DNA of 64,000 nucleotides from Antedon mediterranea (Eukaryota; Echinodermata; Crinoidea; Comatulida; Antedonidae), in NCBI RefSeq assembly GCF_964355755.1, contig NC_092674.1, positions 16,125,001-16,189,000 on the forward strand, read 5' to 3'. The position numbers and the translations under genes were made by a program. The notes under the pieces are model-generated. The model did no database searches. It was not told where the DNA came from and saw only the letters and a program-made list of their open reading frames with translations. Position 1 is the first letter of the stretch. The number at the start of each line of letters is the position of its first letter. Shown one piece after another: positions 1,784-45,600 of this stretch.

Positions 1784-3115
1784 ATGGCTGCAGTGAATGT
1801 TAGACAACTTTTACTTATAAAATCACGATTATTAACTATGTTAATACTAAGGAGGAGACAACAGACACGGATGCAGCGATTTAGAAGAAGACGACGGTTT
1901 TGGGTAAGGAAGATATATGAAGAACGTGAGCAAAAGGGAGAATTCCATCTTCTCGTTCAGGAACTGAAACTGCACGATGCAGAATACTTCTTTCGGTGTT
2001 TTAGAAGGTCTCCAGAATTGTATGAACACCTCTTGAGTTTAGTAGGTCCACATATTCAGAAATCTACGACTAAAATGAGACAGCCCATCGGCCCAAGTGA
2101 ACGATTTACAGTTTGTCTGAGATACTTAGTGACTGGAGATGCACAAGTAACAATAGGTGCAAGTTACCGCATGAGCCCAGCAACAGTAGGAATTATAATA
2201 AATGAAACGTGTAATGTTCTCTGGACGGTCCTAAACCAGGAAGGTTATATAAAACACCCATCGTCAGAGGATGAATGGAAATGCATTGCCAAAGATTTTT
2301 CTGATCACTGGAATTTCCCAAACTGTCTGGGTGCCATAGATGGGAAACATGTTGTCTTGCAAGCACCAGCAAATTCTGGATCAGCCTATTTTAATTATAA
2401 GAAAACATTTAGCATCGTACTCATGGCAGTCTGTGATTCAAATTATCAATTTACTTTGGTAGATATTGGGGATAGCGGTCGGCAAAGCGATGGAAGTGTG
2501 TATAATAATAGTCATTTGGGGTATGCAATTGAAAATAATTTGTTACACATCCCAGGACCACGACGGCTCCCAAATTCAGACAAACGTCTTCCATTTGTAT
2601 TTATTGGAGACGATGCATTTGGATTGAAACCCCATATGATGAAACCATTTCCGTCACAGAATTTGTCTATGGATAAACGCGTCTTTAATTATCGGTTGTC
2701 TAGAGCAAGAAGGGTGATCGAGAACACTTTTGGAATAGCTGCAAGTAGATTCAGAATATTACGAAGGCCCATTATTGCCAGTGTACAAAAAGTAATCCTA
2801 ATCACAAAAGCCATTGTTGTACTTCATAACTTTTTGATGAAAACAAATGCAATTAATAATAACAATTATTGTCCACCAAACTTTGTTGACCGTGACGGAC
2901 CATCCGGATTTAGAGGAGGGGATTGGAGAAAAGACAACGATGCTATTGGGGGATTGCAACCTATGCAGCGACTTGGTTCTAACAATTATTCAAACAATGC
3001 TGCTACAGTCCGACAAGACTATATGCATTATTTCAATAATGAAGGGCAAGTAGAATGGCAATGGCAACTGGTGAATCGTACTGTAACTTCACGCGATGTG
3101 TCTTTAGATGAATGA
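1784..3115 (+). CDS. PIF/Harbinger transposase (HARBI1-like, DDE_Tnp_4)
   Basis: A 443-residue single-exon protein that should catalyse excision and integration of the element. The N-terminus (residues 25-45) is very arginine-rich, followed by the helical region common to HARBI1-type proteins. The catalytic triad is visible: D186 in GAIDGKHV, D276 in FIGDDAFGL and E313 in RRVIENTFG. The supporting motif SGRQSDGSVY is at 231-240. Length and order match the family. The start chosen is the ATG just after the left repeat, in the context AAAATGG. The partner gene lies on the opposite strand, with its 3' end about 530 bp away. No lesion is seen. Confidence 0.93.
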   Translation: MAAVNVRQLLLIKSRLLTMLILRRRQQTRMQRFRRRRRFWVRKIYEEREQKGEFHLLVQELKLHDAEYFFRCFRRSPELYEHLLSLVGPHIQKSTTKMRQPIGPSERFTVCLRYLVTGDAQVTIGASYRMSPATVGIIINETCNVLWTVLNQEGYIKHPSSEDEWKCIAKDFSDHWNFPNCLGAIDGKHVVLQAPANSGSAYFNYKKTFSIVLMAVCDSNYQFTLVDIGDSGRQSDGSVYNNSHLGYAIENNLLHIPGPRRLPNSDKRLPFVFIGDDAFGLKPHMMKPFPSQNLSMDKRVFNYRLSRARRVIENTFGIAASRFRILRRPIIASVQKVILITKAIVVLHNFLMKTNAINNNNYCPPNFVDRDGPSGFRGGDWRKDNDAIGGLQPMQRLGSNNYSNNAATVRQDYMHYFNNEGQVEWQWQLVNRTVTSRDVSLDE

Positions 3116-22668: not shown

Positions 22669-22813
22669 CACCTGAGTAGATTCTTGTCATTTGAGGATTT
22701 GTGGGTCACATGATATTCAACTACTCCATTGAACACTTACGCCACCGAGAGTGCAATTCCATTATATGTGTACCCACAATCCTGCAATCAAATGACAAGA
22801 ATCTATTCAGGTG
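22669..22813. mobile_element. 145 bp MITE with P-element-like ends
   Basis: The terminal inverted repeats start CACCTGAGTAGATTCTTGTC (left) and CACCTGAATAGATTCTTGTC (right, reverse complement). The left ~60 bp resembles the left end of the P-superfamily element at 36624, including the inner block GTGGGTCACATG. It lies just past the 3' end of the beta-carbonic anhydrase coding region. No 8 bp direct duplication is evident: the flanks extend the inverted repeat. Confidence 0.8.
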
Positions 22814-32954: not shown

Positions 32955-33629
32955 ATGACATCTAAATTATTTTTAACACTCATTGGACAGCTGATGTTGG
33001 GGTTTGTATTTTCCAATAGTTTAAAGGTTAAGCCAGTTATAAAAGACCTGGCTAATCATGAATTAAAACTGTATAGAGGGCGCTCGTTCCTCGAAAAGCT
33101 TCAAGACAAAGGACATACAGCATGGCTGGAAAACTCTTGTGAAAATATTCTTGGACTTCTTTTAATGAAGAAAAAAGTGATAAAAAAACTGGATATTGCA
33201 ATTAGTGAAGTTAAACAAAATCAGGAAATTGAGGCACCAGAAAGGCAATTTCAAGTACATACCTTTGAGATATTTCAAAAAGAGTTAAATGAGAGTGAGA
33301 ATTCAATATTTATGGCAATTAATTCTTTGAAAAGAGACTTGGAAGGAGATTACAAAGACATAATTAACATAAAAGACAGTAGTCTTGAGAGACTTGAGGC
33401 ATTAAGAGAGGCAACTTTAAGAGAGGAACAAGAGTTTAATGACTTATTGGCAGCTGAGAAGCATCAAGTTGAATATCAATTGCATTTAAAACAACTAGGA
33501 AATAAATCTTTTGGAGACAATCGAACAAAAGTTGATTTTATCTTGGATGAGATTTTGGCAGAGGTTGCTATAGCAGCAGATAATCTGGAAAATCGTATTG
33601 AAGATCATGCATTTGATCAATCAAAGCAG
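32955..33629 (+). CDS. TMCO3: TMCO3 exon: signal sequence and coiled coil
   Basis: 225 codons, phase 0 at the end. [20 protein letters not shown] is a likely signal sequence. The rest is charged and helical (for example [19 protein letters not shown]). The exon ends at HAFDQSKQ before GTAACA. Confidence 0.92.
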
Positions 33630-36600
33630 GTAACACAATTTTTGTTTGATAATAAACTAATAATGATTGTATATCATAAAACACAATCCATACTTTCACT
33701 AGAGATTCATTTAAGGCCCTGTTCACACTGATCAAGTGTTTTATTTATTGTAGTATTGGTACATTTTGTTATAGTTTGCTATCACGGTATCATATTTTAA
33801 AAGGCAGTGGGAAAACAATTTAGGTCATGAATATGTAACAATAATAGTCATGAATGTCGGAACTTCCGTTCTGTGTCTGAATTTATCAATAATCAAATAT
33901 GCACTGTATCCATTTTAGTCACGTGTAACCCGACACTACAGCTCACTATGTTGGTCGGTAAAAACTTGAGCACATGACTGCAGCCATATACAGTATATAG
34001 CCTTGTTTACCATTGTTTTTAAATTAATTTGAAAGAATCAAGAGTTTGTTCCAAGAAAGGATGCAACAAAAGAAAAAAGTGACCTTGCAATCAGTGTGAA
34101 TATAGCCTAGTCCTGAATATTTCAAGCCAAATGTTTTCTCTCGGTGACCAACTACCAACTTTTCACTCCCAAATGTTGGCAGGTATCCAAAATGGCACCA
34201 AATTGGACCAGTAGGTCAGAAATAAACGAAGAATGAATTGCACTGTATACAGAATCATCAATCATAATATCAGAATTGGCACATTCAAAGTTTTCATTAT
34301 ATATCTGTAGGTACGAGGTGCTTTTATTGAAGCAGTTGTTCGTTTAGATGAGAATGGTAGAAATATGAATAATTCAAATACACGACACAATCATCAAGAT
34401 ATTATGAGTTTGTTGGTTGACACTAATAATAATCAGTATGTTTTAACTAAACCTAAAGATACAACAGTTCCCCATGAAGACCATCATTTCATTCAGGTAA
34501 ACAAATTACTTTGATGATTATTATTATTTGACATTTCAAGCACAATCTTGCCAGGAACAAGAAAAGGTTAATTGAAGTATTTTTAATGATTATATTTTTG
34601 TATGCCAAAGTTCAAAAAGATATTTATAAATTAAATCGGCAGTCCAAAAAAATGCCTTGCTTACAGTAAAAACTAGTTCGTGTCCGTGAACATAGATAGG
34701 CTTTGAAGAATATAAAAAGTATACCTGGCTAGCTACTCAACTGATTAGAGATAAAATAAACCATCTCGGCCAAAGTCAAGTCAAAGTGAACTCAACCACA
34801 AATTAATAGGTCAAATCGGCCCCAATAAAGTATAGAATGAAAAAGTTGCAAACAAAGAGCATGGGGAATATAGCTGTTCAAGAAGACTTTTAAATGAATA
34901 ATTTTAGACTAGGAACAAAAATAATAAAGAATAACTTTATACTACAATAAATAAATATTTATTATTTTTCTTATACGTATACCGAAGTTTATGTGAGACC
35001 ACGGTGACTTGAGTTGCCGTGGGGATGAGTTGAAACAACTTGACTTTGGCCGCGATGGTTTAGGGACGACATCCGACATCCTAACCTACAACAGATTATT
35101 TGCAAATTCAAGTTTTGACAAATTTTGTCAAAAGTCTTTAAAAACATCTTGTTTTTATATGTTTTCAAAATACTGTAACTTGCGTACATTTATGTTTCTG
35201 TTTACTAGGATATCATCATTCTTATGATAGTGGCATTTGTCTGTGGATGGCTCTGTAACTCAATTCATTTACCAGCAATGTTTGGCTATATTATGGCAGG
35301 TGTAATTCTTGGGTCTTCAGGATTTGGAGCTATCAAGGTACAGTAATTACAAAATAACTATTTAAAATATTTTTTAATTTTTGCCCACTTGTATTAAACA
35401 AAAGAAGAAACAATATTGCCATGCATCTAGTTTGGGAATCGAATGGCGAGGTACACACCTTTGGGAGGTGGAACTAAATCTACTGGCCAATTCAAAACTT
35501 TAAAAACTAAGCATCTCTATCTAAAGATAGGTTGCCATTCAAAATAATTTGTATTACAAAAATTTTTTATTTCACTCATTTTTAGCTGCCTAGTTTTGTT
35601 GGGTTGATAAATGACGAATTTAATTCCAATACTAAAATTGAAAAGTCACTATGGACAAGTTAGGATATCCACCGCGCAAATGTGCACGTCATACGTCAAA
35701 ATATTGCGCAACGAAAAAAGATTATGCCATTGTGACCTGAAGAAAATAAAATGTTGTTACTGTGCTCTCTATTTTGTGTCTAAGTATATATACAGTATAC
35801 ACTATATACTGTATATACTACATATAGTGTAGCATAGGTGAAATTACCCGCCTTTTATTCCAATTTCATCAAAATGAAAAACGAACATAGCAATTTTGGA
35901 AGGGAATTATCTGAGAAACAATTCAGTAATTCATGCATTTGAACATGATATCATCAAAATTTTAAAAATGGTAAATCATGCAAAAGATAATTAATTGACC
36001 TAGACAATATCAAAATCTGGGGGAAAATGGAATACGGATAAGTGGAGATGCGCTCAGATATGATCAGCTATGAAGACAAATATCCTATATTTCATATTCA
36101 AGTGGCCATACGATGATGTCACAATATCCGGTTAGCCATATATCTACAACTCATCACCTTCCAGAATGTGTAATAAAAATAATTTTCATAATTTTTTTTA
36201 AAATACATCATTTTGACAAATTTGTGAACGTTTTCATCAAAAACGTGCGTGAATTGTTTAATTTGAAGTTATCGTATGATGTGATCTTATATCGGAATGG
36301 TTTAAAATTTGGTAAACTTTCTGTGAAACATGCCATTTTTTTCATTACAAAGTTAGCGCATGATATAAATTACACTTTTGCTAAGTTTCAATTTACCTAT
36401 GTTAAATACGCAAATTTTATAAAATCGTGTGTAAGGTCACGTTGCGCAATTGTAAACGACATGAAAATGTTAGCTGCACAACCTCACGTGAATGACGATT
36501 TGTTGAGAAAATTACGAAATGTTATGTTTGCAAATTTTAGAGATACGAGAGACACAAAAATTACAGAAAAAATAAAGATCTTTGACAATCACATAACTGT

Positions 36601-39600
36601 TGCAGATAACCAATTTTATATAACACCTAAATAAATTCCTGTCATTTGATTGGACGAATGTGGGTCACATGGCGTGTAATAGTACGCACTATTAAACGAT
36701 CGTTTAATAGTACTTTTTTAAACATTTTGTGTACGGAAAAAAAGACGTTTCGCTGATGAAAACAAATTTAGAATACATCATATAATGATGGATTAATGGG
36801 TTTAATAAAGACGTATTTTTTCATTGAGCAAATAATAAAAATAATTCTTTACTCCATGGTTTTTAGGGCCTAAGCCTACGAGTATAAAATTAGGCCTAAG
36901 TACGATCGTTGTAGATTAATCCTAATCTTGGTTGTATTTTATATGTTTTCAAAAATAAAAAAATACTTCAAATACAATCAAAATGACGCGTCCTAAGAAA
37001 ACTGCACAAGACGACCTTTACTACGAGTCCGACTTTTCCGATTTAGATTTTGAATTAGAAGATTTAAGCTTTAATTCCGGTGACGAAGATGTGACAGACG
37101 AGTTTAATTGTGTTTGTAAAGAAAAAGATGATGCAGAAATGATAGGGTGCGAAAATCCCAAATGTTTGAAATGGTACCATTTTCGTTGCGTTGGAGTAAC
37201 ACAAGACTCTCTACCGAAGGGCCAATGGAAATGTTACGTTTGCACCGAATCCGCCATTTCTACAGATAATTTGCACACCCAAAAACTAAAAAAAGGTAAG
37301 CTTTTATGATTGTAAAAAAGTAATGAATTCAACTACAGTATTCTGTTTAGCAGACATATACAAAACTCTTCAAATGTTGATATAAAACTATTAATTAGGC
37401 TTATATATTTTATTTGGATTGCCTTTTATTTTACGTGTAAATGAAATAAACTAATAAAACGACAACAAATAAATCAAAAATTTAAAAAAAAAGTGTATTT
37501 AAGATTAATTTTAATGGCTAAAAACGTCTAGTATAATAAATGGGGTGGGAAAACATAAGTGGGATATAAGTTTAAGCATGCCGATTTCCACTAATGTTTT
37601 GTGAAGCCTATAATTTATTTTCTTTACATTTATTTAGGTAAAATGAAACGCCCCAAAAACGGGTATAGCGGGGACGAGGCATTGGAGTTTGCCAACGAAA
37701 ATTTACGAACGTCTGTATTGTCAATCAAATCACATCCGATGTTCAGTGGCTCGTTTCCTAACGCCGAAATAGCGCAAGAAATAGCGGCACAGATCTTAAC
37801 AGATAATATGTCAACATTTGCAGAATTCGCTCGGAAAACAACAAGAAAGTTGTGGACTGTGGTTACCAGCGGTGACAATACATTTTTAGGACCAGAAGCT
37901 AATGAATGCATGTTCAGGGAGTTGAATTCACTTATATCTAAGGATGAAGACATTTTTTAACATTGGAAAACATTATGTGGCAGAAAATGTAGAGTATCAG
38001 ATATACTTTACAGTTATGTGATGAGGACAATGTACGCCAATATTGTGGCTGAACGGAACTGAGTCGAGAAACCGACAGAAACGGATAACCAGGATGAAGA
38101 TCTACTGACTTCCAAAGACGAACAAGTTATACGGTATGTTGCTGGCTACATTTCATTCGCGTTGATTAAACGGTTTAAAGGCACTAAAGCCTCTTCTCTC
38201 TGCCATATGCTCTCATCGTGGAAGGAAGGGGATCCGAAGGAAGGAGTTGAACCTGACGGAGATAACTTCTATACGTATTCAAAAAAATGGATTGACAAGC
38301 AAAGTAGAGGGGGACTGTTTAAAGTCAACCATAATGTTTATATCTTCTTTAGGAGGGTAGAAGTTTTGACTAGACGAGTACTACATGTTTCGAAAATATT
38401 AACATTCAAATCATTAAGCATGAATGACGAGATAATAAACATTGTTATTAACGACGCTATGATACAACAGTTGTGGTGCGCACTTGTCGACGGAAAGCTC
38501 CACGGTGCACCCAGTACACACTTCCTGACGACGGTGATAAAATACTTCGTTAAAATCCGTTGTACTGCGTTTGTCCGAGTAAACATGTTGATACTAAGAA
38601 AAAAAGAAGAAACAAAAACAAATAAGTCAGAAAAGCCTCTTAGAAAAAGACTACCTAAAAAGACAAATACAAAGAAATGAAATTAATACGCACAATGATT
38701 TTACATAATACTAATAACAATTGAATATAGCACGACATAAATTAGCCAATGTATATTTGGTTTTTCCTTGGCGATAAAATGTTTTCATGTTTTTTTATAT
38801 ATTTTAATATTAGGCTATGATGATGATGTTTTTTTTTTATTTACCAGTTTAATAAAATAAGTACGATGTTATTAGTCTTACTTTACTTCTTTTTCTTGGC
38901 CAAAGGTGTTCCATCAAGCAAGTTAGAGACTGATTCACCCTCTCTTCTTGTATTTCCTCTTTTTGCAGCTTTGATGCAACGTCCAGTAGCATGTAAAATT
39001 AAATAACTGGGTGATATCTGGATTTGTATTTTGCCCTCCAGCACTGCGTTGTTTAGAAAAATACTGTTCTAACGGATCCTGGTTGAACTTACGACTCAAA
39101 ATAAATTCTACTCCCGGTATTTCAAGCAACAACTTAGAGAGCTCAACAAAAGATTTCACTGTCAGAATTAAAAAGAAAATTAATTTAAATATTTTTATTT
39201 GTACATATATATAAAAATATATATTGTTGTTGACACAATTCAGGCTGTTAACGGGTCACGAACTTAATTATAATTGTTCATACCTGTTATCCGTAAGCCA
39301 GTAAGTGTTTGTTCACTAAGCAGCGTTTTGCGTTTCCCGTTCCCACTGTAGGCTGATTTTCCCAGTCGTCGATGTATTTCAAAAACACGTCTGTCAGCCA
39401 CTGAGAATATAAAATTATCAAATAAATGTCTGAATGTAGGTAGGCTGGCTTATCATTCATGATTACCGTACATATTTGAAAAGCCATTTCTTTTATAACA
39501 TGAAATAAATTTACTGTACCTACTATAATACAATAATGAGCAAATATAACTGCACTTTGTTTTATTTGAATAAAAAACTAGACATTATGACGAGGACCTA

Positions 39601-42600
39601 CCGTAAAGCGTTCGTCATTGGAGCTGCGGTATGGGTTAAGATCTGGATTTCTTTTATTCCTACCCTCGTAAGAATTCTTAACGTTCAAGCAATCGAAAAA
39701 ACGATTGAACATCCTAACAAATTGTACCGTTGAGGAAAGCTCGTCATCACCAAGTAGCTCTAAAGCGTTAGCAACAGTGCTACTAAGTACCTGTGAGAAA
39801 ACGTGTTAAAAAGTATTAAATGTCAAATCAGGATAGTAGGGTCGGTTGTGACATATAGGTTCATTAACATAGCTTTTGATCTCAATACCTGTGCAGCAAG
39901 GTACACTCACATCCGCAATGATGGTGTCAAGTAGATATGCTCGTTCTTTAGTTTATGTAAAATTCTTAGTCCAGGAGATTTCTGTTCAAGACCTATATCA
40001 TGTTCGTAGATTTTTACCAGATGCGACCATTTGATTGGTTTTCCTTTGTTCTGTGGACAAAAGAAGATTATTATTATTTGTTCTACAAAAAATAATGTAT
40101 TTAACCGGTTTAGATACGGTAACGTATACGGTAACTTACCATTAGCTTTCTTGAAGTTCTGCTGGACCAAGACTTCTCCCAATTGTTTTGTGTTGTCTTT
40201 ATAAGGTGCGGGACATCCGAGAAGAAATATATATCTCTATCGCGTGCATACAGGTTGACAGTCTTGTATTGCAGTCGGTCGTCGTCAGTGCTGTGTATTT
40301 TGAAAAATTTTCTGCAATAACTGCACGGACTTTTAAGCTTAAGAATTCTAGAGCTTCAACAATATTCCAGATAATTGGAAATAGTTGGTCCCCTGTCATT
40401 GCTCGACATGGGTAATATGCAATGGGTAGTCGGTGACTCGTAAAGATGCCCATCACCATGATTACTAGGACATGCGTTGCGCATTCACTTTGATTTCGTC
40501 CTTCTACTGACATTCGGAACGCTTTGAGTTCTTCATTCAGTGCTCCCAGTTCTGTCATACCGTCGATTTCCCCGGTTTTGTGATTATAAACCATCCCGCT
40601 CTTGATGTTCATTTCATCAATAGCAATAACAACATTCTGTTGCCACGTGTTTAAAATATCGGGATTTATACCAGGTACAGCATCTGTAAAGTGCTTGTAC
40701 CTGCTGATAGTGTTTATGTGTGGTAACACAAGCATCCCACACTTCTTTAAAAATTGGTAAGCGGCAGGAGATTTGGTGTGTAGGGCCATGCATAAGCGCA
40801 TTATAGCTGGGTGCCATCTTATTCCTTTCTTGTTTTGTAACGCTACTGCCTGCAGTTGTTGTTCAAAAAGTAGTTTTTCTGGAGATCTGTCAGGAAAGTT
40901 CAACGAACATTTAGACTCATCTAGAATAGTGCAAAATGCATCGTTTTGTTTGTCGTTTAACTTCACAGATTCCTTGTTTAGCATTTCTGCGATTTCATTT
41001 GTTAGTGTCTTGTTCCTTGCTGTGAGACGTTTTTTATCTTTCTTCATGTTCTGTAATCTTTTTTTCTTTTCTTCTTCGGAAAGAACGGAAAACGTCAAAT
41101 GTGACGATGATTCTGTTTTTAAGAAGTTTTTCGTTCTCTTGCGTGCATACGCCGTCATCGCTCTAACAGTAACATTTACTCCATACACGCGACAAACTTT
41201 ACATTGGCGACCGGTTGCTACAAAAACTTCGCACTTAACATGGATGATAATGTCATCTTCAACATAGGCAATTTCTTTCCCATTTGTACCCTTAAAAGAA
41301 GTTTTCATTTTCAAAGGGGCTGGAATCAGGTTACCACCACATAAAGGCATAGATATGAGATCTAGAAAAGTGCTAATGTTTTCGGTTTCCAAAACTTCTG
41401 GTATATCTGAAAGAAAGGCGCAGTTTTTATGATCTATTTTTTTACCTCGTATAACAATTTCCCAGTTACCGTTGCTTTGAATAGAAACGCATCGCTTATT
41501 TTGTAAAATGGCTGAATCAAATTCAATTAAAATTAGGCGTTTTTCTTCCTTTACTACAATGTAGCCTCGTTTTATGGATTCAATCTCCAGAACATCGCGG
41601 TTTAATGCAGCAGGACCACAAATTAAGCAATCAGAAGACGAATGTGCAATAAACGGCTTAACCTCAATTGAAACTGTTACGTGCATCTTTTTCTTTGCCC
41701 TATCACGCCAACTTCGCAATTTTCGTTCACATTTTGAGCATATATAAGGAGGGTGTACACTTTCGTCATCGTTGCTAACATCAATATTCAGCCATTTTGT
41801 GATAAGTTCACTGTATTACTCCTTTCTGAAAGGTAATGAACGATTTCGATGTTCCTCAGTCGTACCGTTACATTGACATAGCCGGCAAATATTTGCCAGA
41901 TTCAATTGATGTAATTCGTTCATTTAAACTGAAATAACGACATAAAAACAGTAATGAGTAGGGGCCTATAAATAATAAATTATTATAAATCTAAATTCTA
42001 TTTTCTTAAGTTAACAAAATAGGCCTACTTCTAATATTTATTTAGGCCTAAACAGGCGGAATAGCACAAAGACCTTTATCTAATGCAGATTGTTTTACTA
42101 ACCGCGATGTACTGAACTGTACATAATCCTTTTAAACAATGGCTTATAATTACAAAAGAGCATAGACTATATTTGTAATTGAATTTTAACCAACACATGT
42201 AATTTGTAGTTGTTGTTACGGGTTGATACAATGGAGTAACGATTTTTACTCCATGTTGATACTAAACGAATATTCTCGTAATATTTTATACCATATTTCA
42301 TAATAACGACTATCCGAAAACTAAAACCAATTGATTAATTTCTTCTTTAATAAAATATTACTACTAATACTATTTCTAACGTTATTACAATTATTAAATA
42401 TTAATAAAAAACGTATTGCTACTATTATTTATATTGTTTTTTATCACTATAGACGCGCCTATGCATTAACCTATTGATAGGCCTACCGGTTAAGGTATGC
42501 ACTAAATATGTCCATCATTATATGATGCAATTTATTAAATAATAATATATTACGAAAATATAGGCCTACTGTGTAGTAGGCTTGTCCACACATCGTTAAA

Positions 42601-45600
42601 CGATAGATAATTTAGTCCTACAATTTCACTGAACTCTAAGTTTCTGATCGTAAAAACCATATATTTTATGATATTAATTTAATTATACAATATCAGACTA
42701 AAATAAAAGAACTAAACAGTCATAATATAGACTGAAACATAAATTAAATGTCATGATAGTAATAAAAATAAGAAATTGTGTCGTTGGAATTCTACTATAC
42801 GTATATTTTTGAATATTCATGAGCTTAAATTATACAATTTTTTTCATGCGCGCATTTGCGCGCACTAAAATATAATTTTAAAATAAGTTAGTTAGAGTGT
42901 TTTATATGCTACAAAATGCACTAGGGTTCGTAAATTAAAAAGTTGTTTAAACGGTAAAATTTCGACTTACCAAATGATACGTCTATGGCTTGATAAAAAA
43001 TATGATTAATTTGTTAGCTGGTATAAAAACTGCGATATCTCCATGAAAAATTACTCGATTTTTAAACGTTTTTTTCGAGAAAAAAGCTCAAAGAACAATG
43101 AACAACTGCACAAAGGTCATGCTTCACTATGATGTATTAGAAACTACTGCGCAGCCTCTGTTTACTTTTCTTGTCACCGATGTCATGCCTGGCTTCTTCC
43201 TTAATTAGGGCGTTACGTAATCAGAGCCGACTCTGCAGCGAGCTGCACGGGTAAGCAGGATGTTCTTCAAAGGATCGTTATGGGAAGTTTATTACCCTAT
43301 GCTTAAGCACTACCGCACAGCGTGATACTAGTTCGATTAACTGGATAGCTAGGCCGAGTTGTGTCTCCTTTTATTCTTTACTCCATGATTCAAATGACAG
43401 GAATCTATTTAGATGTTATATAAAACAAATAATGAATGTTTTATATTCGTGTAATGGTACAAATAATGGCATTTGGTGAATGATGAAAGGTTATATTTGT
43501 ATAATATTGTATTCTTTATAGATTAAAGTATATATTAACTTAAAAAAGGGCAAAACGTTAACAAATCAGCATTTTTAGCGACTTCCGGAGCAGAGCGTTT
43601 AGCTGTTGCACTGGCCAAAAATATGTTTGTAATGGGTCAAATATAATTTATAGAAATTTCCCATGGTGCACATAGAGAAAGAAATTAAAATAATTTGGGA
43701 AACTGTGCATCAACTACAGTAATATAGTTGATTCAAAATGTAAAAACTGGAAAATTATTAATTTTAGCATTTTTAATATATATTTTGCATTGGGAAACAA
43801 TTAAACTGCATGTATATGTATTAAGGTAAACTTCTAATTGATTTACACTCTGAAAACCTCCTATGTCATCCCCATTTCATACTGATACAATTTTACTTGT
43901 GAAAATGCCAAAAAAAGTTTAATATTATCAATATCAGGTTGAATTTTCATTTTTTTTTAAATTTTCCTTTGTAGGCTGTTGTTCAAGTAGAAACATTAAG
44001 TGAGTTTGGTGCATTTTTCATATTGTTTTGTGTTGGATTGGAGTTTTCACCTGAAAAAATAAGAAAGGTATGTTTCTCTAAATAAATAGACATTTTGTCA
44101 TAACTACTGTTACAGAGGTCCCAACTTGGGAAAGTCCATTCGCAGGAGATTTTGTTGTAAACCTCATTCAATTCGTCGGGGCGTCGAAAGTCAACGCGCA
44201 GGGAAGTGAAAATCAACACGCGTGTTGTTTACATCTCTTAATTAACTTAATAATGCAACATAACATGGCATTTAATGATCAGACAAACAAATATACAACT
44301 TCTTGAAAACTTGTTATTTACAATATTTACAAATAGCAAGTTTTTTAAGTCTTTCATCCATCATGATCAGTATGTTACATACAATATTTACACATAAGTT
44401 GGCTTAATGTTTACATAAGTTTATCCATCAGTATTTTTATATATATTTTTTTTTATGGACACTTCCTCAGTACAAAGAATTAAAAAAATATATATTTTAA
44501 CTAAAATTCATGACATAACATAATTTAACTTAATTACATAATGTATAATATTCCCACATGATAGTATTGCCCAATAGAATTTAATACATTTTTTTAGGAA
44601 CAGACCTAGGCCTTCTACTTCTAGGCCCTAGCTACCATTTTTAAACCCAAAAACAATCAAGATTGAAATAAACTATTTCCGTCTTATATGCTACATTAAG
44701 CGAATTAACATATTATTTCAGATGAAAAACATTTAGTTTTATATTGTTTTATCCATACATAATTACACTGGCATTAAAGATATAAGAGTAAAATGTAGGC
44801 CGTTTATGAGCTATATATTTCGCCGATTTATTATCGCGGGGAAATTCCCCACCAGCGACATCGATCGATCGAGGAGTAGGCCTAGGCTAGAGGCCTAGCG
44901 TGCATGCCGGAATGGGTGGATTATTGCTATATAAATAACAAGTTTGAACAAAAGAGCTTACGACAATCTTAGGTACTACTTGCTTGGCGAATCCATACCT
45001 TTTAAATCATTTAACAAGTTCGTAATCGGATCGTACAGTAAAACCAAATAACACTGCCTCAACAACCTCGTGCGATCTGTTGTTCTTTGCAGCAGATCAA
45101 CATTGGTAGAGTCCATTAATTATGAGGGTGTTTAAAAATGTAATAACTATTAAAAACGTGTCTCAACCACTGTGTAATCAAAGCGTTTATTTAGTTAAAA
45201 CTTGGATCCTCTCAAAATTGATAATCGCGTATTCCGGTTACCACGTGATTGATTCACGGTTGGTTGCACGCTTCTTTTTTTTACACGTCCGGCGTGTAGT
45301 ACTGTGCATGTTTATATTATTGTTACGGTTTAACAAAGGCAGTGCATACAAATAAAAATACAATAATAGACCACGGAGACTGCATGAATAGACATTGTTT
45401 CAACATCCTGCCTCACTTTTGTCTGGTTATTGACTATTGTTGACCTGGGCTGAGCCTGGGTGTAACCGTAAATCAATTTGGCCAAAAATATGGAGAAATT
45501 TGAAAATGCGGTAGAAAACGTCGAGATATCGGTAGCACGGTAGATGGGTACTAAAAGCGGTAGACTACCGCGAGTAGCGGTAGACTTGGGACCCCAGCTG

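Follow-up and report, generated by a model that had tools for sequence, protein, structure and literature searches.

A 64,000-bp stretch of the genome of the crinoid Antedon mediterranea (contig NC_092674.1, here C5, positions 16125001-16189000; referred to as the window) probably contains a dead cut-and-paste transposon of the P superfamily that is truncated on the left, sits inside a miniature inverted-repeat transposable element (MITE) and comprises two genes, one for a transposase that begins with a RAG1-type zinc module and a partner gene that encodes an ING-type PHD finger. This copy, referred to as A1, occupies 36781..43387 on the minus strand, as judged by comparison with a better preserved copy (A2), its left border being approximate. 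Relatives were sought in the same genome (354 Mb, 18 contigs), where the core of the transposase yielded 28 protein matches.

The transposase gene of A1 runs from 41923 to 38883 on the minus strand in five exons with GT/AG borders, in agreement with the five exons of the original prediction. Exon 1 (40140..41923) encodes the zinc module, a helix-turn-helix (HTH) and the N-terminal part of the RNase H domain, exon 2 spans 39889..40050, exon 3 (39602..39790) encodes the GTP-binding insertion domain, exon 4 spans 39284..39400, and exon 5 (38883..39158) encodes the C-terminal part of the RNase H domain. On the window pieces, three core Pfam families scored above their cut-offs, namely PF21787 (RNase H N-terminal part, 64.4 bits), PF21788 (exon 3, 37.2 bits) and PF21789 (exon 5, 32.4 bits), while the P-type HTH family PF12017 reached 21.8 bits, just below its cut-off of 23. 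A profile of four families found the Drosophila P transposase (6p5a) as its top match in the PDB (E=2.5e-15), with the FDEM, DGAS and DxPHL motifs in register. As to the DDE triad, two Asp and DxPHL aligned with Drosophila P in this family profile, the third acid being read by eye only. The Pfam core and the 6p5a match confirm the proposed placement in the P superfamily, and the catalytic core is P-type rather than of the RAG1/Transib type. The family PF12940 had no match in this genome, nor in the control genomes, so its absence from the genome is not established by this search.

Judged by its reading frames, the window copy is dead. Its transposase is interrupted by a TAA at 41818-41816 in exon 1 and by a TGA in exon 2 (an R codon in A2), with frame breaks in exons 1, 4 and 5; a small deletion at ~40310 in exon 1 removed the second catalytic Asp (of DGAS) and shifted the frame. 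The partner gene, which lies on the plus strand and is convergent to the transposase gene, is broken as well, its second exon containing two in-frame stops, a TAA at 37958-37960 and a TGA at 38060-38062.

Relatives elsewhere in the genome bear out the claim that the element includes the zinc module as well as the PHD gene, and the search for better preserved copies was rewarded with one complete element and several less broken ones. Copy A2, on the minus strand of the same contig and with pieces 92-98% identical to the window copy, ends in a perfect 31-bp terminal inverted repeat (TIR), CATGGAGTAAAGAATAAGAGGAGACACAACT, flanked by the target-site duplication (TSD) GTTGTAG, and has open frames of 621 aa for transposase exon 1 and 355 aa for the partner exon. 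Element C is complete (contig C11:13871856-13878179; 32-bp TIRs and exact TSD GATACCG), and inside its TIRs lie a transposase exon 1 of 590 aa with the zinc module first, a convergent PHD exon and a partner exon of 350 aa, with no stops in the exons read. In the smaller element G (L042, contig C1:29252604-29255146; 2543 bp, 28-bp TIRs, TSD ATCAAAC), a zinc-module exon and a PHD exon face each other, with no core match listed there. Family B consists of two copies that are 99.4% alike across 4172 aligned bases and have open frames of 617 and 342 aa; the TIR was found on the PHD side in one copy and on the zinc-module side in the other, each outside both genes. The two-gene layout of zinc module and PHD is shared by A, B, C and G.

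These elements also bear on the idea that a nested insertion brought host DNA or other unrelated sequence between the ends, and with it the RAG1-type module and the PHD gene. The window copy by itself might invite this idea, being nested in a MITE and having had its ends misread. However, both genes of element C lie between its TIRs, with an exact TSD around them, the same holds for A2 and G, and the ends of B flank both genes from outside, which leaves such a capture highly improbable; for the PHD gene in particular, an origin by chance or by nesting was rejected on the evidence of element C. Element F (contig C1:2820999-2826549; TSD CGGACAC), whose copies are 99.5-99.6% alike, has a transposase and a partner domain (homology of the partner at E=5e-7 in a single comparison), and neither a zinc module nor a PHD finger was found in it. 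Because F has neither, the zinc module and the PHD finger seem to come or go together. It counts against the proposed reading that families D and E, by coordinates, have no partner domain within 20 kb. Searches of collections of viral, phage and prokaryote genomes, in which an animal element is scarcely to be looked for, gave no relatives. The partner domain was also noted at C11:6725463, C1:3221150 and C3:16180853. Zinc-module exons of the G type occur at six places (30.5-33.6 bits); small derivatives such as G might make products that consist of the zinc module only and could act as repressors, as truncated P products (KP) do in flies.

The ends of the window copy differ from those first assigned to it. 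Inverted arms were indeed present at 36614-36649 and 43390-43425, with TTATATAA at 36616-36623 and 43416-43423, and the original prediction took these ends (36616 and 43423) to be those of the P element. This was rejected, as the same ends recur with TTATATAA on elements of ~0.5-0.7 kb, and A2 lacks them and ends in its own perfect TIR. The right TIR of A1 (31 bp, CATGGAGTAAAGAATAAAAGGAGACACAACT; 43357..43387, minus strand), recognised by its match to the A2 TIR from which it differs by one base, sits just inside the right end first assigned, and the 28 bases directly after it are the right end of a MITE (43388..43415, plus strand), a remnant with its 26-bp TIR. On the left, MITE sequence (36624..36777, plus strand, with a 26-bp TIR at 36624-36649) extends up to 36777, and P sequence starts from ~36781, at a point ~445 bp inside the left end of A2; with A2 as reference, A1 lacks the left ~445 bp, including the left TIR. 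Because the P TIR at 43357-43387 adjoins the MITE end and A2 ends without MITE arms, A1 is best read as a P element that inserted into a MITE and whose left border was lost afterwards.

The MITE itself was recognised from other copies. A DNA search with the left 2 kb gave, besides the window and A2, at least 43 rows at ~38 places that matched the left end only, with matches ending at query position 178; the count is a lower bound since 40 of 1577 candidates were scored. The MITE is roughly 700 bp long, and five copies (L004-L008) were read: four showed both 26-bp ends, flanked on either side by TTATATAA, and the fifth showed one end. The two TTATATAA copies in the window (36616..36623, on comparison with these five, and 43416..43423) are therefore assigned to the MITE and not to the P element. 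A 145-bp element at 22669-22813 of the window has the same MITE-type 26-bp inverted ends, one with 4 mismatches and the other with 3, but no clear TTATATAA beside them.

The N-terminal zinc motifs described for the transposase were recovered in exon 1 as a module of the form CRLC ... IHP.ICxxC ... CLIC at 41618..41887 on the minus strand, which was then compared by Pfam, phmmer, profile and hhalign searches. Its consensus reads CRLC(G) ... ID(V/I)..D..(V/I)HP.(F)IC..C...L..W, followed in families A, B, D and E by a later C-x2-C after 30-33 residues; the family C module is without the H of HP and without this third C-x2-C. The window fragment scored 27.3 bits against RAG1_imp_bd (cut-off 23.3) and 23.6 bits against zf-AD (cut-off 28), the Pfam family of the ZAD domain, and family A fragments passed RAG1_imp_bd again with 26.6 and 27.6 bits. 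With phmmer against the PDB, RAG1 accounted for three of the four rows at E up to 10 (best E=0.0057). A profile of five families (A-E) placed RAG1 (21wb) first at E=1.1e-5 and ZAD (7po9) second at 0.0021, followed by full-length RAG1 at 0.045, USP36 at 0.068 and others (8 rows, E up to 10). By hhalign, the module profile matched the RING-bearing family H at 97.3%, RAG1 at 94.5% and ZAD at 75.9%. No RING was seen after the module, by eye or with Pfam, in the open frames of A-E that were scanned.

The RAG1-like character of the N-terminus was upheld in part, as A passed RAG1_imp_bd and RAG1 came first by profile, but B and C passed zf-AD instead. Several results weigh against a RAG1 assignment. 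The hhalign match to RAG1 spans 64 columns and ends before the third C-x2-C, and the whole 621-aa A2 protein reached only 16.9 bits against RAG1_imp_bd, below the cut-off. Trimmed B and C passed zf-AD (28.3 and 30.0 bits) and failed RAG1_imp_bd (18.0 bits for B, no match for C), and D and E each gave 23.7 bits with zf-AD, below its cut-off, versus 7.1 and 6.2 bits with RAG1_imp_bd, so that ZAD, overall a close second to RAG1, outscored it with Pfam in every one of the five families except A.

Such scores would suit a different origin, in which the module is a ZAD-type finger taken from a host zinc-finger gene and its likeness to RAG1 reflects common treble-clef traits. All six P modules tested matched zf-AD, and weak matches below the cut-off extended to L020 (25.4 bits) and G (21.6 bits); the whole B and C proteins, too, stayed below it (25.8 and 25.3 bits). 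Against this stand the ranking of RAG1 above ZAD in both the profile search and hhalign, the passing of RAG1_imp_bd by A, the spacing of the later C-x2-C (30-33 residues in A, B, D and E versus 31 in RAG1), and the IDV..D..(I/V)HP run, which is common with RAG1 and absent from the one ZAD chain aligned (a 68-residue piece, not the ZAD family). A host-derived ZAD finger is on balance unlikely, though its probability is not negligible. Since the N-terminus of RAG1 itself weakly matches zf-AD (17.8 bits, cut-off 28), ZAD was read as a relative rather than as an unrelated finger. ZAD, the RAG1 N-terminus and the P module may thus belong to a single domain superfamily in which the P form is intermediate, and the P module may correspond to the Chapa domain.

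The second gene and its PHD finger were found as described. Partner exon 1 (36983..37295, plus strand) encodes an acidic N-terminus and an ING-type PHD finger of the C4HC3 kind at 37109..37243 (PF00628, 32.0 bits, cut-off 24), and exon 2 (37638..38680, plus strand) encodes a conserved domain with the motif RYVAGYI..RGGLF. In the PDB, ING proteins took the first 14 rows for the window PHD, led by ING4 (E=7.9e-12), and likewise the first 14 of 27 rows for the PHD of family C, led by ING3 (E=1e-15). RAG2 was absent from the best 60 of the 72 matches of the window PHD and from the 27 of the family C PHD. The finger passed the Pfam cut-off in A and in C (28.5 bits); the generality of the PHD is weakened by B, where it scored 14.3 bits, below the cut-off, and by G, where it was detected solely by a local profile that included the G PHD itself. 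ING fingers read histone H3 trimethylated at lysine 4 (H3K4me3).

The original prediction had left open shared ancestry of the N-terminal module or convergence; the partner, for its part, could be imagined as a true relative of RAG2, given its convergent orientation and its PHD finger, both as in RAG loci. However, its PHD is nearest to ING and is N-terminal, and the second domain had no Pfam match above cut-off and no PDB sequence match, with no kelch propeller found by Pfam or PDB sequence search; moreover, the partner of F has the domain in an element in which no PHD was found. A RAG2 relative is accordingly very improbable, and the ING-type PHD together with the lack of a PDB match for the second domain led us to discard RAG2 ancestry. 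Because the nearest solved relatives of the PHD are ING proteins and no kelch was found, the likeness of the partner to RAG2 looks parallel rather than homologous.

An exact 7-bp TSD was present in all six elements in which both ends were found, the ends of A2, F and G having come from a script that requires a TSD and those of C, L047 and L048 having been located by their TIRs alone. For B, TSD-requiring searches found no ends, and each of the two copies yielded a single end on reading. The A-type TIR occurred 56 times in the genome (up to 3 mismatches), versus none for a reversed control, and formed 21 facing pairs, 17 of which were spaced 2.1-2.4 kb; the two such copies that were read (L047 and L048) both had an exact 7-bp TSD. 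Along with the near identity of copies in B and F, this speaks for mobility. The TIRs of A, B and C begin with CATG, as do those of Drosophila P. TIRs with a TSD in the 7-8 bp range accompany the RNase H core with GTP-binding insertion and the DDE residues as marks of the P superfamily.

A THAP N-terminus is usual in P transposases, and was not treated as defining the superfamily. By coordinates, all of the 75 THAP matches that a profile search found in the genome lay more than 30 kb from the loci of A-F; one was ~1 kb from the P core L027. A tree of the cores, with 15 rows of which 7 were less than half filled and with several long branches, separated L027, L035, L032, L036 and L037 from ten rows including A, B, C, D, L020, F and L028 at 100/100, and in the former group of five a THAP match was nearby for L027 only. 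This tree gives weak support to a split between THAP and zinc-module transposases. A THAP match was also seen 6 kb upstream of the P core L028 (C11:14816812-14823724), which falls on the side of the zinc-module families in the tree; if part of L028, it would weaken the clean split of the tree.

With Drosophila P, THAP9 and Galileo, the element shares the DxPHL motif and an RNase H core that contains a GTP-binding insertion; it differs in having a zinc module of the RAG1/ZAD type instead of THAP, and an added convergent PHD gene. Its 7-bp TSD is like that reported for Galileo (PMC4168063), whereas an 8-bp TSD is reported for Drosophila P and Pdre2 (PMC10983969). With RAG1 and the Chapa domain of Chapaev and TransibSU it shares CRxCG ... 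IDV..D..(I/V)HP..C..C and, in A, B, D and E, the later C-x2-C, but the module is attached to a P core and not to a Transib or Chapaev core, and is without a RING in the A-E frames scanned. Passages in Kapitonov and Koonin (2015; PMC4411706) equate the truncated N-terminus of RAG1 with the Chapa domain, and describe the Chapa and RING domains as unknown in mobile elements outside the listed Chapaev and TransibSU/RAG group. The N-RAG-TP of Aplysia is likewise a mobile element with a protein like the RAG1 N-terminus, but is described as composed entirely of such sequence (PMC8355894), whereas here a P transposase follows. The RAG1-RAG2 and RAGL systems have in common with the present element a convergent two-gene layout with a zinc N-terminus on the nuclease and a PHD on the partner; they differ in that the nuclease here is P-type, the PHD is ING-type, no kelch was found, and the TSD is 7 bp rather than the 5 bp given for RAG (PMC8355894). 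We found no description of the combination of zinc module, P core and PHD gene in the open-access literature, and Repbase Reports or subscription journals may hold one.

The architecture, the TIRs and TSDs, the joint presence of the two modules and the dispersal of copies were observed directly, whereas the roles of both modules, the histone mark read and any contact between the two proteins are inferred. The RNase H core of the transposase has the DDE residues and a GTP-binding insertion, as in Drosophila P, and is preceded, in the place of THAP, by the RAG1-type (Chapa-like) zinc module, which might bind DNA or a partner near the CATGGAG ends, for end recognition or dimerisation. The core would cut and rejoin with 7-bp staggers, and the PHD protein would read H3K4me3, as the PHD of RAG2 does (PMC8355894), and so steer or license transposition at open chromatin. 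This division of labour would be like that of RAG1 and RAG2, arrived at separately.

A broader reading, which we put forward tentatively and with rather less assurance than the nature of the window copy, is that a clade of P transposons independently gained the accessory kit of V(D)J recombination, i.e. a Chapa/RAG1-type zinc N-terminus on the nuclease and a histone-reading PHD on a convergent partner, and that the RAG1 N-terminus has been traded between superfamilies, with P forms bridging ZAD and RAG1. If so, the existence of Chapa-like modules in a clade of P elements would alter the account of how the RAG1 N-terminus originated and would tie it to ZAD, an insect zinc-finger domain. The reasons for which a DDE recombinase with a zinc N-terminus is paired with a PHD partner could then also be studied in a second, independent experiment of nature.

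Zinc modules were found in two further families as well. In families H and I, at 7 and 4 places respectively with similar scores, a single exon encodes the module and, after it, a RING-like run, with pieces of DUF1280 downstream. The zinc-module exons listed for them lie at L043:4387-5280 (H) and L044:3688-4158 (I), both on the minus strand; the RING-like run in H scored below and DUF1280 above the Pfam cut-off. These families are possibly Chapaev- or N-RAG-TP-like.

Two open reading frames (ORFs) were noted elsewhere on the plus strand of the window. For one, of 258 aa (32955-33728), Pfam gave nothing at E values up to 0.1. The other, of 443 aa (1784-3112), matched DDE_Tnp_4 with 96.5 bits and is Harbinger-like by our reading.

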